Source: Demequina sp.
GTDB lineage: Bacteria; Actinomycetota; Actinomycetes; Actinomycetales; Demequinaceae
Length of the DNA: 64,000 bases
Reading direction: 5' to 3'
Assembly (NCBI GenBank): GCA_024707205.1
Contig: JANQAD010000001.1
Location: forward strand, 1,391,979 to 1,455,978
Positions 4,938 to 60,406 of the stretch are shown piece by piece. The translations under genes were made by a program, and so were the position numbers. The notes under the pieces were generated by a model. It made no database searches. It was not told the origin of the DNA and was given only the letters and a program-made list of their open reading frames with translations. The number at the start of each line of letters is the position of its first letter. Position 1 is the stretch's first letter.

Positions 4938-4943
4938 TTTGCC

Positions 4944-4994
4944 GGCCCGACGCTGTGGTGAGGTTTCGCCCATAGGTGACCATGCCGTCGGGCC
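4944..4994. repeat. family B inverted pair
   Basis: GGCCCGACG at 4944-4952 is matched by CGTCGGGCC at 4986-4994, with TGTGGT following the left arm. The pair can form a 9-bp stem with a 33-base loop. It lies between the family A repeat and the htpX promoter. Confidence 0.65.
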
Positions 4995-5055
4995 GGGAAC
5001 CCCAGCAACCCCCCCTGCCCGTTCCTACAATGGCCGGACGCGAACAGGAGGAACG

Positions 5056-38364: not shown

Positions 38365-39573
38365 TCAACCCTCCGCGAGAAGCCGCTGAATGCGCGCGAC
38401 ACCCTCAACCAGGTCGTCGTCGCCGAGCGCGTAGCTGAGGCGCACAAACCCGCTGGGGCCGAACGCCTCGCCGGGGACCACGGCGACCTCAGCCTCCTCG
38501 AGGATGATGGTCGCGAGGTCCGCGCTCGAGGTGACGTCGCGGCCGCAGATGGTGCGGCCGATGAGGCCTTCGACGGAGGGGTAGGCGTAGAAGGCGCCCT
38601 TGGGGGTGGGGCAGACCACGCCGTCGATCTCGCGGAGCATGTCGACCATGGTGGTGCGGCGTCGGTCGAAGGCCTTGCGCATGAGGTGGACGTCCTCAAG
38701 GCCGCCCTCGAGCGCCGCGATAGCCGCGCGCTGTGAGACGTTCGCGACGTTGGACGTGAGGTGGGACTGGAAGTTGGCGGCGGCCTTGGTGACGTCGCTG
38801 GGCGCGATCATCCAGCCGACGCGCCATCCGGTCATCGCGTAGGTCTTGGCCACGCCGTTGAGCACGACGGTCTGGTCCGCGAGTTCCGGGACCAGCTTGA
38901 CGATGGGGGAGAAGACGGCGTCGTCGTAGGTGAGGTGCTCGTAGATCTCGTCGGTGAGCACCCAGATGCCGTGCTCGAGCGCCCACTCGCCGATCGCCTT
39001 GGTCTGCTCCGGGGAGTAGACCGCGCCCGTGGGGTTGCTTGGAGAGCAGAAGAGGAGGGCCTTGGTGCGCTCGGTGCGCGCGGCCTCGAGCTGCTCCACA
39101 GTGACGAGGTAGTCCTGGTCTGCGCCCGCGAAGACCTCTACGGGGGTGCCGCCCGCGAGCGCGATCGCCTCCGGGTAGGTGGTCCAGTACGGGGCAGGGA
39201 GGATGACCTCGTCGCCGGGGTCAACCACAGCGGCGAAGGCCTGGAACACGGCCTGCTTGCCGCCGTTGGTGACGATGACGTTGGCGGGGTCGATCTCGTA
39301 GCCGGAGTCGCGGAGGGTCTTGCGCGCGATGGCCTCGCGGAGTTCCGGGAGGCCGGTGGCGGGCGTGTAGCGGTGGTTCTTGGGGTCCCTAGCAGCCTGC
39401 ACCGCGGCCTCGACGATGAAGTCCGGGGTGGGGAAGTCCGGCTCGCCCGCGCCGAAGCCGATGACGTTCTTGCCTGCGGCCTTGAGGGCCTTCGCCTTGG
39501 CGTCCACGGCGAGCGTGGCGGAGGGCGCTATGGCGGCGAGGCGTGCGGATACTCGGCGAGCAGGAGCGGTCAT
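38365..39573 (-). CDS. pyridoxal-phosphate aminotransferase, aspartate aminotransferase family (class I)
   Basis: A 402-residue enzyme: [13 protein letters not shown] near residue 41, [11 protein letters not shown] (cofactor phosphate contact), [20 protein letters not shown], and the Schiff-base Lys in [17 protein letters not shown] near residue 240. It is of the I-gamma (prephenate/aspartate) type common in actinobacteria near secE-nusG. Transfers amino groups between aspartate and 2-oxoglutarate or a related pair. Confidence 0.92.
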
Positions 39574-39602: not shown

Positions 39603-39702
39603 GATTTCCAAGGGTCTCGGTGACCGAAGTGACAGGTGGGGCATCTTGGGCCCCAAGTTTCGTTCACACTAGTTGCATCCGTCACCGAGACCCTTGATTG
39701 TC
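39603..39702. repeat. family A palindromic repeat, copy 2
   Basis: A 100-bp unit. AAGGGTCTCGGTGAC at the left is the exact complement of GTCACCGAGACCCTT at the right, a 15-bp stem, with CTTGGG/CCCCAAG in the centre. It ends GACCCTTGATTGTC. It lies between two divergent genes, so it is not simply a terminator. Confidence 0.85.
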
Positions 39703-39794
39703 TTGCGTCCACAGGGGGCTGGGGTCGGGAGGTTCTCCCCAGTTCGCGCTGAGGTTGGTTGTGCCCGCCCCACCGTCCCGGCAGATTCGCTCCC

Positions 39795-40673
39795 ATGGAT
39801 CCCGTCGCAGTCCTCGCCAGCCTTGGATTGGTCGCAAGGCGCAAGGAGCTGCTCGCGTGCGGCCTGACTGACAAGGATCTGATGGCGGCCGTGGCCGCCG
39901 GCAGGGTGCTGCGACCACACCGTGGCTGTTTCGCACTTCCGGACGCATCCTGGAGCCGCATCAAGGCGAAGGTCATGTCGGCTCAGCTGACATGCCTGAG
40001 TGCGCTGCGCGCGCTCGATCTCCCGCTCCTTGAGCCCTACACGGGACTGCATCTCGCCATTCCCCCACACCGGGGATTCGTCCAGGGCGACAAGCGCCTT
40101 CGCGAGGGGCTGCGGTTTCATCGGACCGATAACGCGGTGAGTCCGGGAGTTGTCGCGCCAGTCGCGACCGTGTTGGACCACCTCGGCCTCTGCGCTGCCC
40201 CGCTCACTCAGTTGGCCGCTATCGATGCTGCGATGCACGACGGTCTCCTGACCGAGCCGCAGCTCGCGGCCTTCTCGGCTACGCCGCTGCACAGACTGCG
40301 TTGGCTGGAACGTCACGCCGAGCCAAGAACGCAGTCACCCCGCGAAACGAAAGTGCGACTTGAGCTCTTGGCGGCGGGACTCGCAGTGGAGCCCCAAGCC
40401 GAGATTCCGGGCCTCGGCCACGCGGACCTTCTCGTGGAGCACGTCGTGGTTGTCGAGTGCGACGGGTTTAGCTTCCATGGCAATGAGGCCGCATTCAACG
40501 AGGACCGCAGGCGAGACCGGGTATGCGAGATGCTCGGCCTCAGTAGATTGCGGTACACCGGTGCGGAGGCATTGGCCTCCAAAGGCGAGATCGCCGCTGA
40601 CGTGAAGCGCATGCTCTCCCTGCGCCAGCGACAATCAAGGGTCTCAGGGACTGGAGTGGCGGGTGTTGACTGA
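39795..40673 (+). CDS. DUF559 endonuclease-fold protein with AbiEi-like N-terminal domain
   Basis: A 292-residue protein. The N-terminal part (LTDKDLMAAVAAGRVLRPHRG) resembles the winged helix of AbiEi-type antitoxins. The C-terminal part is a DUF559/Vsr-like PD-(D/E)xK fold: GHADLLVEHVVVVECDGFSFHG gives D and ExDG, and RRRDRVCEMLGL follows. Such proteins are numerous in actinobacteria and their role is unknown. No Shine-Dalgarno is seen before ATG 39795. The last 15 codons lie inside family A copy 3, so the repeat forms the C-terminus (RVSGTGVAGVD); copy 2 lies just upstream. Confidence 0.78.
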   Translation: MDPVAVLASLGLVARRKELLACGLTDKDLMAAVAAGRVLRPHRGCFALPDASWSRIKAKVMSAQLTCLSALRALDLPLLEPYTGLHLAIPPHRGFVQGDKRLREGLRFHRTDNAVSPGVVAPVATVLDHLGLCAAPLTQLAAIDAAMHDGLLTEPQLAAFSATPLHRLRWLERHAEPRTQSPRETKVRLELLAAGLAVEPQAEIPGLGHADLLVEHVVVVECDGFSFHGNEAAFNEDRRRDRVCEMLGLSRLRYTGAEALASKGEIAADVKRMLSLRQRQSRVSGTGVAGVD

Positions 40674-40728
40674 CCTGGCCCCAATCAGGTCCCAACCTCA
40701 CCTTCAGTCCCAGCGCCCCTTGATTGTC
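40630..40728. repeat. family A palindromic repeat, copy 3
   Basis: A 99-bp unit with the most perfect tips: GACAATCAAGGG and CCCTTGATTGTC are exact complements. GACCTG/CAGGTC forms a central hairpin. It begins inside the last codons of the DUF559 gene and runs towards tRNA-Trp. Confidence 0.85.
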
Positions 40729-40856: not shown

Positions 40857-40929
40857 AGGGCAGTGGCGCAATTGGTAGCGCATCGGTCTCCAAAACCGAC
40901 GGTTGGGGGTTCGAGTCCCTCCTGCCCTG
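40857..40929 (+). tRNA. tRNA-Trp (CCA)
   Basis: Acceptor arms AGGGCAG and CTGCCCT pair fully, discriminator G. The anticodon loop CTCCAAA sits between TCGGT and ACCGA, giving CCA. T-loop GGGTTCGAGTCCC. It is followed by secE, the usual actinobacterial order. Confidence 0.97.
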
Positions 40930-44787: not shown

Positions 44788-44797
44788 TCTCAAGACG

Positions 44798-44846
44798 GCC
44801 CGACGCTGGGGTGGGCTTATCCACAATCGTTGCCACAGCGTCGGGC
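44798..44846. repeat. family B inverted pair enclosing a DnaA-box sequence
   Basis: GCCCGACGC (44798-44806) pairs with GCGTCGGGC (44838-44846); TGGGGT and GCCACA extend the similarity. The loop contains TTATCCACA at 44817-44825, a perfect consensus DnaA box. It begins 11 bases after family A copy 4. Confidence 0.75.
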
Positions 44847-44949
44847 TGGGGGAGTAGGCTTGTGCGCTAGGCGAGAGCCTCTCGGCGTGGCGACTGGACG
44901 ATGGAGTCCAGGGCTGGACAATGCCGCGCGCGTCGGGTAGGCTAGCGAT

Positions 44950-56866: not shown

Positions 56867-58057
56867 ATGGGCAAGGCCAAGTTCGAGCGGACCAAGCCGC
56901 ACGTGAACATCGGCACCATCGGCCACGTTGACCACGGCAAGACCACGCTGACTGCCGCGATCTCCAAGGTGCTGCACGACAAGTACCCGGACCTCAACCC
57001 CTTCACGCCTTTCGAGGACATCGACAAGGCTCCCGAGGAGCGCGAGCGCGGTATCACCATCAACATCGCCCACATCGAGTACGAGACCGAGAAGCGTCAC
57101 TACGCTCACGTGGACGCCCCCGGCCACGCCGACTACATCAAGAACATGATCACCGGTGCCGCTCAGATGGACGGCGCGATCCTCGTGGTCGCGGCGACCG
57201 ACGGCCCGATGGCCCAGACGCGTGAGCACGTGCTGCTCGCCCGCCAGGTTGGTGTTCCCTACCTCCTCGTGGCCCTCAACAAGTCCGACATGGTCGATGA
57301 CGAGGAGATCCTCGAGCTCGTCGAGATCGAGGTGCGCGAGCTCCTCTCCTCGCAGGGCTTCGACGGCGACAACGCCCCCGTTGTGCGCGTGTCCGCCCTC
57401 AAGGCGCTCGAGGGTGACCCCGAGTGGACCAAGACGGTCCAGGACCTCATGGACGCCGTGGACGAGAACGTCCCCGAGCCCGTCCGTGACATGGACAAGC
57501 CCTTCCTCATGCCGATCGAGGACGTCTTCACGATCACCGGTCGTGGCACCGTCGTCACCGGCAAGGTGGAGCGCGGCAAGCTGAAGATCAACTCGGAGGT
57601 CGAGATCCTCGGCATCCGCGAGCCGCAGAAGACGATCGTCACCGGCATCGAGATGTTCCACAAGAGCATGGACGAGGCGTGGGCCGGCGAGAACTGCGGT
57701 CTGCTTCTCCGTGGCACCAAGCGCGAGGACGTGGAGCGCGGCCAGGTTGTGGTTCAGCCCGGCACCACCACGCCCCACACGCAGTTCGAGGGCAAGGTCT
57801 ACATCCTGGACAAGTCCGAGGGTGGCCGCCACAACCCCTTCTACACGAACTACCGCCCGCAGTTCTACATCCGCACCACGGACGTGACCGGCGTGATCTC
57901 GCTGCCCGAGGGCACCGACATGGTCATGCCCGGTGACACCACCGAGATGACGGTTGAGCTCATCCAGCCCATCGCGCTGGAAGAGGGCCAGGGCTTCGCG
58001 ATCCGTGAGGGTGGCCGCACCGTCGGCTCCGGCACGGTGACCAAGATCCTCAAGTAA
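56867..58057 (+). CDS. tuf: elongation factor Tu
   Basis: A 396-residue GTPase delivering aminoacyl-tRNA. G1 [15 protein letters not shown]2 [10 protein letters not shown]3 [13 protein letters not shown]4 NKSD; it ends [15 protein letters not shown] is 8 bases before the ATG. Its last 123 bases plus terminator are copied downstream at 59488 and, eroded, at 60219. Confidence 0.98.
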
Positions 58058-58075
58058 CTTCCCGTTACTGACGCG

Positions 58076-58107
58076 CGAGGGCTCCCGGCTTAGGCCGGGG
58101 GCCCTCG
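58076..58107 (+). terminator. terminator of the str operon
   Basis: CGAGGGC and GCCCTCG with CCCGGC/GCCGGG inside, followed by TTGCGTTTG. The same terminator is repeated with each tuf tail copy. Confidence 0.85.
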
Positions 58108-58115
58108 TTGCGTTT

Positions 58116-58188
58116 GTCATCCTGCGCGCAGTCGCAGGACCCCCGTGTAGCTTGTCATCCCGCGGCCGCGGAGCGGATCGCAGGACCG
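58116..58188. repeat. two tandem family C REP-like units
   Basis: Units at 58116-58143 and 58154-58188. Each begins GTCATCC(T/C)GCG and ends CGCAGGACC, with the second carrying GAGCGGAT in the middle. They are imperfect palindromes through TCCTGCG/CGCAGGA. Confidence 0.7.
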
Positions 58189-58196
58189 GCCATCGT

Positions 58197-58240
58197 ACCC
58201 GACGCTGTGGTAGCGTCCGATTTGTCGGTTACGACCGGCA
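58197..58240 (+). promoter_or_regulatory. promoter-like segment with family B word, upstream of the 58289 gene
   Basis: ACCCGACGCTGTGG runs into TAGCGT, a likely -10, then TTTGTCGG. The same arrangement recurs at 59849, suggesting a duplicated promoter. Confidence 0.5.
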
Positions 58241-58288
58241 CGGGGGACCCAAGGGGGGTCTCGCGGACATTCATGTAAAGGGGGCGTA

Positions 58289-59227
58289 ATGTCATTGCGA
58301 CACACACGCACATATCGCACAGGGGGGGGCGTGCTCACTGGCGCCGCGGTCCTGTGTTAGTTGGGCTTGACGCCGGCGTCGGCCGACGAGCCGGATCCGC
58401 TTGACGCGGTTGCCGCCATAGCGCCAACGGTGTTCACGGACGCAATCGTTGTGGAGACCGACGAGGTGACCGCAGTCGACCAGGTAGATGTGGTGGTTCC
58501 TTCGGACCCAACGGACGGTATCTCGCTCGACGCGCAAGGATCCGGTGTTTTCAGCATCGGCTTGCCATTCGCCGACGATGCCCGACTGGTCCCTGACGGC
58601 GAGCACCCGTACTTCGACAACGGCAACGGCAGTTCCACGGTGCCGCTGGTCAAGGACGACGGCACCGTCCAAATTCTGACCACGATCGACAACTCGGACG
58701 CGCCGTCAAGCTTCTCCTCCCAGCTTGACCTCCCCGCAGGGGCAACTCTCACGCTCACCCGCAATGGTGGGGCCAAAGTGGTCACCGACAACGGCGTTGT
58801 CACCGCGACAATCGCTGCCCCGTGGGCACTCGACGCGCGCGGTCGTGCCGTCGAGACCCACTACGCAGTCGTGGGCCAGACCCTCGTCCAGGTACTTGAC
58901 TTTGACTCGGACACCGTGTTTCCCGTCGTTGCTGATCCCAAGGTCACGAGTGGAATCATCTCGGGCACTTCGTACTACAACAAAGCCGAAACTAAGTCGA
59001 TCGCGCAGGCACAGACGACGGGCGTAATCGCAGCTTGCATCGCGGCGGGTGCCGCCGGCGGCCCAATTGTGGCTGCTGTCGTCGGAGTGAAGTGCGCCAC
59101 CGTGGTGGTTCCCATGCAGTACACCGCGAATCTCGCGGTGAACAGCAACAAATGTCTCGCGATGAAGATCTACTACGGTACGACTATCCTGACGTTCAGC
59201 ACGTACTCGGGAGGTAACTGCAAATGA
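58289..59227 (+). pseudogene. secreted protein with an amber codon in its signal peptide
   Basis: From ATG 58289 (AGGGGG upstream) the frame begins as a Sec signal: basic RHTRTYR, then GGGVLTGAAVLC, then TAG at 58358-58360, then LGLTPASA and a cleavage-like ASA-DEP. Beyond it the frame is open for 288 codons. The mature domain contains VLDFDSDTVFPVVADPKV and a C-terminal part with Gly/Ala-rich hydrophobic stretch (about 59025-59090) and NSNKCLAMKIYYG, with paired Cys. The VVADP motif occurs in uncharacterised secreted actinobacterial proteins (recollection, not searched). Restart at TTG 58361 would lack most of the signal. It overlaps the next gene by four bases. Confidence 0.6.
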
Positions 59228-59472
59228 CAAGCGAGAGACCGTCACCCCCGCCGTATCGTGGGCTTCATGTTCGGCCACTCTTCCAAGGTCCTCTGAAGGC
59301 TTGTGTCACGAGCGTGTTGGTTCTTGCCACGATCGTGGGACTGGCAACGGCATTACAGGGCTCGTCGGTGGGGAACGCTATCGCCACCGCGGCTGGCCTC
59401 CTCCTCTTCGGTTGGGTCATCATGCTCCAGCGCCGAGAATACGTTCGACGCGGATTGAGGTGGCCCGCGTAG
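59224..59472 (+). CDS. small membrane protein paired with the secreted protein
   Basis: An 82-residue protein with two hydrophobic segments (about 27-45 and 50-66) and an Arg-rich end. Its ATG overlaps the stop of the preceding gene in ATGA, so the two form a unit. A secreted-protein/immunity-protein relationship is possible but unproven. Confidence 0.6.
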   Translation: MTSERPSPPPYRGLHVRPLFQGPLKACVTSVLVLATIVGLATALQGSSVGNAIATAAGLLLFGWVIMLQRREYVRRGLRWPA

Positions 59473-59487
59473 TGCACGAAGGGATGC

Positions 59488-59669
59488 GACACCACCGAGA
59501 TGACGGTTGACCTCGTCCAGCCCATCGCGCTGGAAGAGGGCCAGGGCTTCGCGATCCGTGAGGGTGGCCGCACCGTCGGCTCCGGCACGGTGACCAAGAT
59601 CCTCAAGTAACTCCCCGTTACTGACGCGCGAGGGCTCCCGGCTTAGGCCGGGGGCCCTCGTTGCGTTTG
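59488..59669 (+). pseudogene. duplicated 3' end of tuf with its terminator (copy 2)
   Basis: These 182 bases match 57935-58116 with about three differences. They encode the last 40 residues of EF-Tu up to [10 protein letters not shown] and stop, then the same terminator hairpin (CGAGGGC/GCCCTCG). There is no start codon, so it is not expressed as a protein. Confidence 0.95.
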
Positions 59670-59670
59670 G

Positions 59671-59705
59671 GGCCATCCTGCGACCGCGAAGCGGATCGCA
59701 GGACC
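59671..59705. repeat. family C REP-like unit after tuf tail copy 2
   Basis: CCATCCTGCG, CGAAGCGGAT and CGCAGGACC, in the same position relative to the tuf terminator as in the original. Confidence 0.7.
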
Positions 59706-59940
59706 CCCGCGCGGGTTCCTGACGGACGATCGCCCCGGTGGTCCATCACGAAGCAACAAGGGTAGGTCCCTGACGGACGGATGGAGCATTCTCCCGCAAC
59801 TGCGGGCAGCCGGCCGCGGCCTCGGGCGGAACGCAAGCCCCCGCGGCCTCCGCCCGACGCTGTGCTAGCGTCACGTTTGTCGGCTTTGGTCGACCTTTGG
59901 GGACTCTACGAGCCAGCGGCTCAGGAGCGGGGGTATTCAG
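59706..59940 (+). promoter_or_regulatory. non-coding gap with duplicated promoter-like segment
   Basis: No gene is seen. TTCCTGACGGAC and TCCCTGACGGAC form a direct repeat. CGAAGCAACAAGGG resembles CCAAGCAACAAAGGG just before the 60407 gene, perhaps the remains of a lost gene start. GCCCGACGCTGTGC runs into TAGCGT at 59849-59870 and then TTTGTCGG, matching the promoter-like segment at 58197. Confidence 0.45.
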
Positions 59941-60249
59941 GTGACCATTTTCGGCATCGCGTTGAGCCTTGCCCTTTGTCTGATCTCGGCAACGCTTCAG
60001 AACATCTTGCCGTTGCGGGGATTCGTCTGGCGGCAGGAACATGGGCGGCCGATCATGGCGGCGCAAGGGGTGATGACGCTGGTGCTCGTTGCCGGGCTCT
60101 TGTGGAGTGCGGAAACTGAGTTCGCGGCGCTGCTCATGGCCGGGTGGCTCGGCGGTCTCGTCATCGGGTTCCTCATAGCGGCGTTGCGTTCGCTGCGCTC
60201 TGGAGAGCCCGGCGGACAGGTGGCCGCATCTTCGGCTCCGGCGCGGTGA
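59941..60249 (+). CDS. small membrane protein whose C-terminus is overprinted on a tuf tail
   Basis: A 102-residue protein from GTG 59941 (GGGGGT upstream) with three membrane segments (about 3-22, 38-57 and 62-84). Its last 10 codons (VAASSAPAR then stop) are read from the eroded tuf tail at 60219 in a different frame, so the stop codon comes from tuf-derived DNA. No family recognised. Confidence 0.6.
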   Translation: MTIFGIALSLALCLISATLQNILPLRGFVWRQEHGRPIMAAQGVMTLVLVAGLLWSAETEFAALLMAGWLGGLVIGFLIAALRSLRSGEPGGQVAASSAPAR

Positions 60250-60320
60250 CCAAGATCCTGAACTAACGTCGCTTGCTGACGCGAGGTCCCCAAGCTGCGG
60301 CCGACGACCTCGTTGCGGTT
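60219..60320 (+). pseudogene. eroded 3' end of tuf with degenerate terminator (copy 3)
   Basis: In the tuf frame it encodes GGRIFGSGAVTKILN and a stop at 60266, against [15 protein letters not shown] in EF-Tu. A decayed version of the terminator (GCGAGGTCCCC; ACCTCGTTGCGG) follows. Confidence 0.85.
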
Positions 60321-60323
60321 GGG

Positions 60324-60357
60324 GTCGTCCCGCGGACGCGAAGCGGATAGCAGGACC
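60324..60357. repeat. family C REP-like unit after tuf tail copy 3
   Basis: GTCGTCCCGCG, GCGAAGCGGAT and AGCAGGACC, again just after the tuf-type terminator. Confidence 0.65.
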
Positions 60358-60406
60358 CGCCGAGTGGCCCGGTGTACGTTGGCGCCAAGCAACAAAGGGG
60401 GTCGTG

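Follow-up and report, generated by a model that had tools for sequence, protein, structure and literature searches.

Nuclease genes in actinobacteria often lie between gene-specific palindromes

INTRODUCTION

RAYTs are the dedicated enzymes that have been described for dispersed bacterial palindromes. In the parts of two reports drawn on here, the nuclease gene of the REP/REPIN and RAYT (TnpA-REP) systems is flanked by two palindromic repeats, and gene-free copies of these repeats are dispersed between genes, next to 3' ends and sometimes supplying stop codons (PMC2817692, PMC3733652). The locus described here, which lies in a stretch of 64,000 nucleotides of a Demequina sp. genome that we refer to as the window, resembles such systems in all of these respects. 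It differs from them in its enzyme, since RAYTs have a Transposase_17 domain of the IS200/IS605 type, whereas the protein encoded here combines an AbiEi-type winged helix with an MTES_1575/Vsr-type nuclease. It also differs in its repeats, which lack a GTAG tag, are approximately 55 to 130 bp long compared to the 20 to 40 bp given for REPs in one of these reports (PMC3733652), and occupy roughly 5 to 40 loci in the genomes examined here compared to the usual number of more than 100 given in the other (PMC2817692). Because neither its enzyme nor its heads are of the RAYT type, the present system falls outside REP/RAYT, although it works in a similar way.

Three other kinds of element share some of these features. 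The AbiEi antitoxin of type IV toxin-antitoxin systems also has an N-terminal winged helix and is described, in the sections of a study of this protein used here, as binding to long inverted repeats within its own promoter (PMC3985639). In the present protein, however, the C-terminal half is a nuclease, the repeats are found on both sides of the gene and dispersed, and at the window locus no AbiEii toxin/nucleotidyltransferase gene lies beside the nuclease gene. The predicted fold of this C-terminal half is shared with I-Bth0305I and the MTES_1575 nucleases (structures 3r3p and 3hrl), and MTES_1575 is assigned to the Vsr fold in a passage of a previous study (PMC3710099). Unlike these nucleases, the one described here is framed by palindromes and fused to an AbiEi-like domain, with no intron seen around it, and the passages on DUF559/MTES_1575 proteins drawn on here from open-access papers make no mention of framing palindromes. 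Finally, D. mangrovi and D. soli have dispersed copies that, like MITEs, resemble both ends of a longer unit from which the gene is missing, but Pfam detects neither a DDE nor an HUH transposase domain in the window protein and no target-site duplication was demonstrated.

RESULTS

The initial annotation had described a nuclease gene framed by palindromes of 99 to 100 bp with four copies in all, and each of these was confirmed at its place in the window (Table 1). The claim that copy 3 provides the C terminus of the protein also held, as this copy starts in codon 279 and contributes the last 14 residues and the TGA stop codon. Copy 4 probably lies between two genes that we take to be rplL and rpoB, and the aminotransferase next to the nuclease gene is presumably aspC-like, judging from its sequence.

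Table 1. Positions of the nuclease gene, the palindromes, and the boundaries of the syntenic interval in the window
Feature	Position	Strand	Description
Palindrome copy 1	4839..4937		Gene-free, dispersed
Aminotransferase gene	38365..39573	-	Left boundary of syntenic interval
Palindrome copy 2	39603..39702		100 bp; upstream of nuclease gene, 30 bp from aminotransferase start
Nuclease gene	39795..40673	+	292 aa; AbiEi-like winged helix (N-terminal), MTES_1575/Vsr-fold nuclease (C-terminal)
Palindrome copy 3	40630..40728		99 bp; encodes residues 279-292 and stop of nuclease
tRNA-Trp	40857..40929	+	Right boundary of syntenic interval
Palindrome copy 4	44689..44787		Gene-free, dispersed

All four window copies are imperfect palindromes over their full length, with GTGAC-like motifs approximately every 9 bp in each arm, and they have the ends CAAGGGTC and GACCCTTG in common, apart from one base in the right end of copy 3. 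Their arms are still largely complementary despite wide sequence divergence between copies. A strict palindrome scan of the window recovered copies 2 and 3 and returned zero palindromes from three mononucleotide shuffles, which excludes chance as their origin. The head of the window family is GACNNNCAAGGGTC, which is not of the GTAG type; other heads include GAYTCCCAATGAC and GTACGCACATGAGCG, and the exact pattern of a related head was found in 45 stretches from named genomes, 42 of them Demequina.

The covariance model R1 detected eight copies in the 2.54-Mb genome (one contig) with scores of 72 to 92 bits, seven of them 99 bp and one 100 bp long; seven of the eight had been used to build the model, which leaves the eighth as the sole independent match. 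The family is therefore not limited to the four copies initially annotated, as the genome has four more and, in addition, eight loci of a sister family (L022, L023, and L025 to L030 in the window genome, G000). These scored 28 to 36 bits with R1; their interior, with GTGAC motifs every 9 bp, is the same, but their head is of the GGCTCCGCACGG type. No cognate framed gene was found for the GGCTCCGCACGG family in the window genome, where it is possibly an orphan repeat population. Similar heads are present in the matching flanks of genes L297 (G009) and L485 (G008).

Several other features were noted in the window. Two of the four window copies are followed by a short inverted repeat, CGGCCCGACGCTG ... 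CGTCGGGC (4943-4997 and 44796-44850). This repeat is also present next to several other palindromes of the genome, in some cases flanking them on either side as an outer palindrome. Rfam searches near the palindromes gave nothing above the gathering score except tRNA, and a HOTTIP_1 match inside copy 3 was below threshold (19.7 bits compared to 50) and was taken as chance. Positions 57935-60358 contain a 182-nt repeat, with 98% identity between copies 1.55 kb apart and a shorter third copy, which possibly derives from duplicated genes.

The window protein matched only four Pfam domains, MTES_1575, AbiEi_4, DUF559, and DUF2726, and the Pfam scan found no Transposase_17 (Y1/HUH) or RAYT transposase domain. 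It had been labeled DUF559/AbiEi-like. AbiEi_4 matched residues 13-49 with 25 bits, just at its cutoff. For the nuclease domain, MTES_1575 (PF18741) is a better name than DUF559 (PF04480), which reached 16 bits compared to a cutoff of 20.6; MTES_1575 matched residues 184-268 with 32.3 bits (E value of 1.1e-7), below its curated cutoff of 38.2, which other members in the genus pass. An AlphaFold2 model built from a shallow alignment of four sequences had a mean pLDDT of 78.8. Its Foldseek matches were weak, with none at an E value of 0.001; the top match was the AbiEi antitoxin 6y8q (E value of 2.7e-3), and those that followed included the endonuclease-like protein 3hrl and I-Bth0305I (3r3p), a homing endonuclease, with TM scores on the target of 0.74 and 0.62, respectively. 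The protein 3hrl was also matched by sequence (E value of 1.9e-5) with a profile from 18 family proteins, in whose alignment nine residues are invariant: E184, Q201, D211, E221, D223, H228, D237, G248, and R253. A first contig scan with the window protein as query found no relative.

The proposal that such nuclease genes are flanked by repeats more often than other genes was examined in 60 solo PF18741 genes among the matches listed for the genus, a set that leaves out the genes at the syntenic site of the window gene, reading frames outside approximately 250 to 480 amino acids, and three genes at contig edges. PF18741 also occurs in very long open frames (>1,300 amino acids) in many Demequina genomes, among the matches listed. 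Each gene was given a flank score, that of the strongest gap-free repeat, in direct or inverted orientation, shared by its upstream and downstream flanks. This score was at least 17 for 42 of the 60 nuclease genes compared to 1 of 88 other complete genes of 500 to 1,600 nt in the same windows, and at least 13 for 50 of the 60 compared to 6 of the 88 and to 12 of 180 swapped pairs. Eighteen of the 60 scored below 17 and 10 below 13. The 60 genes are not independent, as they include orthologs from related species. A palindrome scoring at least 16 lay beside the gene in 29 of the 60 loci and spanned its stop codon in 15, and 14 further palindromes of at least 16 lay elsewhere in the 60 windows. 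Two eligible genes outside the 60, in G040 and G008, scored 17 each. These results bear out the proposed association.

Within the window genome itself, the window gene had a flank score of 16 and two palindromes, four of the eight other family genes scored at least 17, and three of the nine family genes scored 12 or less. The framed genes L384, L385, and L390 carry unrelated heads, and L389 has matching flanks with no scored palindrome beside it. PF18741 genes were found in all 44 genomes of the genus, compared to R1 matches in 10 and R2 matches in 23. Judged from R1 alone, gene and repeat would appear not to be associated, a result that was reversed when each gene was tested with its own flanks. 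The R1 model is misleading because it is too specific to one head, and a plain comparison of presence and absence with any single repeat would mislead because the genes are present regardless of a model match. The idea of a new repeat-nuclease pair thus survives the association test, with heads that vary from gene to gene.

A homolog of the window gene occupies the interval between the aminotransferase gene and tRNA-Trp in 21 of the 44 genomes and is not in this interval in the other 23, and some relatives have an unidentified frame there. A palindrome (at least 16) or matched flanks (at least 13) were detected in 13 of the 21 gene-containing intervals compared to 1 of the 23 gene-less ones, while 8 of the 21 genes showed neither at these thresholds. 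The single gene-less interval with such a feature is that of G024, where one palindrome is present. In G019, a close relative, the gene stands between two palindromes, and the flanks of the two intervals are 85 and 92% identical. By eye, the left half of the G024 palindrome is like the left copy of G019 and its right half like the right copy. This state fits gene loss by recombination between the two palindromes, a preinsertion state being the alternative. Two half-arms, approximately 1.1 to 1.2 kb end to end, enclose the gene in D. mangrovi and D. soli, and these half-arms, when joined, give a dispersed palindrome of the same genomes. Twelve relatives among the first 30 loci gave a tblastn match to the window protein with approximately 31 to 52% identity, compared to 82 to 90% for the adjoining aminotransferase, indicating that the window protein evolves fast. 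We also compared R2 matches with the presence of the gene at this site (16 of 21 genomes with the gene had matches compared to 7 of 23 without it; Fisher P = 0.003), but this comparison is confounded by shared ancestry and was given little weight. G020 has 46 R2 matches and no gene at the syntenic site.

Each of the three heads traced across whole genomes also has gene-free copies, which together with the framing corresponds to the description of one autonomous unit with nonautonomous copies. The head of the second framed gene in the window genome (L390) had 21 matches there, mainly as paired or clustered arms, which are found at the gene and also at several distant sites. Each of the 43 relatives had 0 to 2 matches, as many as expected from the reversed control. 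The head CGCGCCACAGCTTCGTCG of another family had 33 and 31 matches in two genomes of one genus (5 and 3 in the reversed control), with 14 and 12 plus/minus pairings exactly 63 nt apart, so that 26 of 27 pairings form a fixed 81-bp palindrome, the one extra pairing being at 104 nt. Among six other genomes of that family, from four other genera, five had 1 to 3 matches compared to 2 to 4 in the control and the sixth, G154, had 6 compared to 3, none paired. Several orthologous intergenic sites carry palindromes with different heads in different species, among them the sites of both window copies and of both G011 copies. Heads therefore seem to change within a genome while the sites persist. With a homolog at the syntenic site in 21 of 44 genomes and palindromes at orthologous sites, the window copies look old and the window unit is not a recent arrival. 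Present-day movement is not visible, because the copies of the window family have diverged and lie at old orthologous positions.

The association was also found outside the genus. The 18-protein profile matched 104 of 119 genomes of the order, representing 48 of 54 genera. Eight of 21 loci from other families had flank scores of at least 17 compared to 2 of 420 swapped pairs, and of 12 further loci picked from the match list, which have no swapped control, 9 scored at least 17, four of them 70 to 89. In Actinomyces oris (NZ_CP116225.1), two near-identical palindromes of 122 bp frame the gene, and this record has four palindrome places in all, two of them away from the gene. Three of four plasmid homologs were examined for their flanks; two from Tsukamurella (L352 and L353) scored a weak 15 and 13, and L352 has one palindrome beside the gene.

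The positions of the repeats bear on the possibility that they are regulatory, with the upstream palindrome an autorepression operator for the AbiEi-like domain, the downstream one a hairpin terminator, and the dispersed copies the operators or terminators of a regulon. Part of a study of AbiEi describes repression of its own promoter via inverted repeats of up to 23 bp (PMC3985639), which would suit such an operator. The dispersed Demequina copies also hug the 3' ends of genes at a median of 9 nt from the stop codon, with 61 of 70 distances to 3' ends within 50 nt compared to 15 of 34 distances to 5' ends, and in 15 of the 60 loci a palindrome spans the nuclease stop codon. These positions are approximate, since the crude gene caller put 24 of the 77 elements inside open reading frames; 52 of the 77 could be placed between two genes. 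However, the 19 copies of the 81-bp palindrome in G088 and G128 showed no tendency toward 3' ends (7 tandem, 6 divergent, 4 convergent, 1 inside, and 1 at an edge), so that termination is not the general role of the palindromes. In addition, upstream and downstream copies match over approximately 100 bp or more in L351, L402, and L403, as an operator and a terminator need not, and a nuclease domain with nine invariant residues would not be needed for regulation. We therefore regard a purely regulatory role as rather unlikely.

It is still less probable that the palindromes are features of the host, either terminator hairpins or box arrays of the MtrA type, beside which the nuclease gene merely inserts. 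The window family does contain GTCACANNN direct repeats with a 9-bp period, like the MtrA boxes described in a section of an earlier report (PMC4285127), and 10 of the 12 GTCACANNNGTCACA sites in the window genome are inside palindromes by position. Nevertheless, heads vary between genes of one genome, many of those listed lack the GTGAC motif, and that of the second unit is restricted, among 44 genomes, to the one with the window. The MtrA-box reading was thus set aside as fitting some heads only. Perfect GTCACANNNGTCACA sites, which are MtrA-box-like, might titrate MtrA when present in palindromes.

A role in defense or addiction, with the nuclease directed against DNA and the palindromes of the chromosome serving as binding sinks or self-marks, would accommodate the weak match of the N terminus to PADLOC AbiEi profiles and the MTES_1575 nuclease domain described in an HEPN-fused protein in part of a paper on conflict systems (PMC3710099). 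It appears improbable to us, as the window gene lies between the aminotransferase and tRNA-Trp genes with no obvious toxin or methylase partner. This argument is weak, since it concerns the neighbors at the window locus and some relatives have the unidentified frame mentioned above.

DISCUSSION

The results described above demonstrate that nuclease genes of this type often lie between gene-specific palindromes in actinobacteria and that, in the cases followed, the repeats are also scattered. We consider it likely that the window contains one unit of a repeat-nuclease system, in which a gene for an AbiEi-type domain joined to a Vsr/homing-type nuclease is framed by palindromes and accompanied by dispersed gene-free copies, and for which cognate recognition, cutting, and repair-copying are predicted. 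In such a system, the AbiEi-like winged helix would read the head of the palindrome and the Vsr-type nuclease would cut at or beside it. Repair of the break would then copy or keep the palindrome and sometimes the whole palindrome-gene-palindrome unit, and because repair would do so, protein and head would be expected to change together.

More tentatively, the system may be a homing-type gene drive that acts on the palindromes. The nuclease would cut sites that lack the palindrome or have an older head, and repair from a cognate copy would convert them, so that heads at fixed orthologous positions would turn over in concert within each species and the fast-evolving protein would follow. The system would then be an equivalent of REPIN/RAYT that evolved independently, uses a nuclease of the Vsr type, and is widespread in Actinomycetes. 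We view this version as possible but clearly less secure than the repeat-nuclease system as such.

The pairing of nuclease and palindrome has the appearance of a REP/RAYT-like partnership that evolved a second time, independently. In the open-access literature searched, no precedent for it was found, which suggests that the repeat-nuclease pair is new. If the proposed system is correct, a second, unrelated enzyme family would have its own palindromes, and the partnership of repeat and enzyme would have evolved more than once. It would also assign a role to a large nuclease family that so far lacks one and is matched in most genomes of the order, and the many natural pairs of protein and head would provide material for studying the persistence of repeats and the coevolution of DNA recognition.
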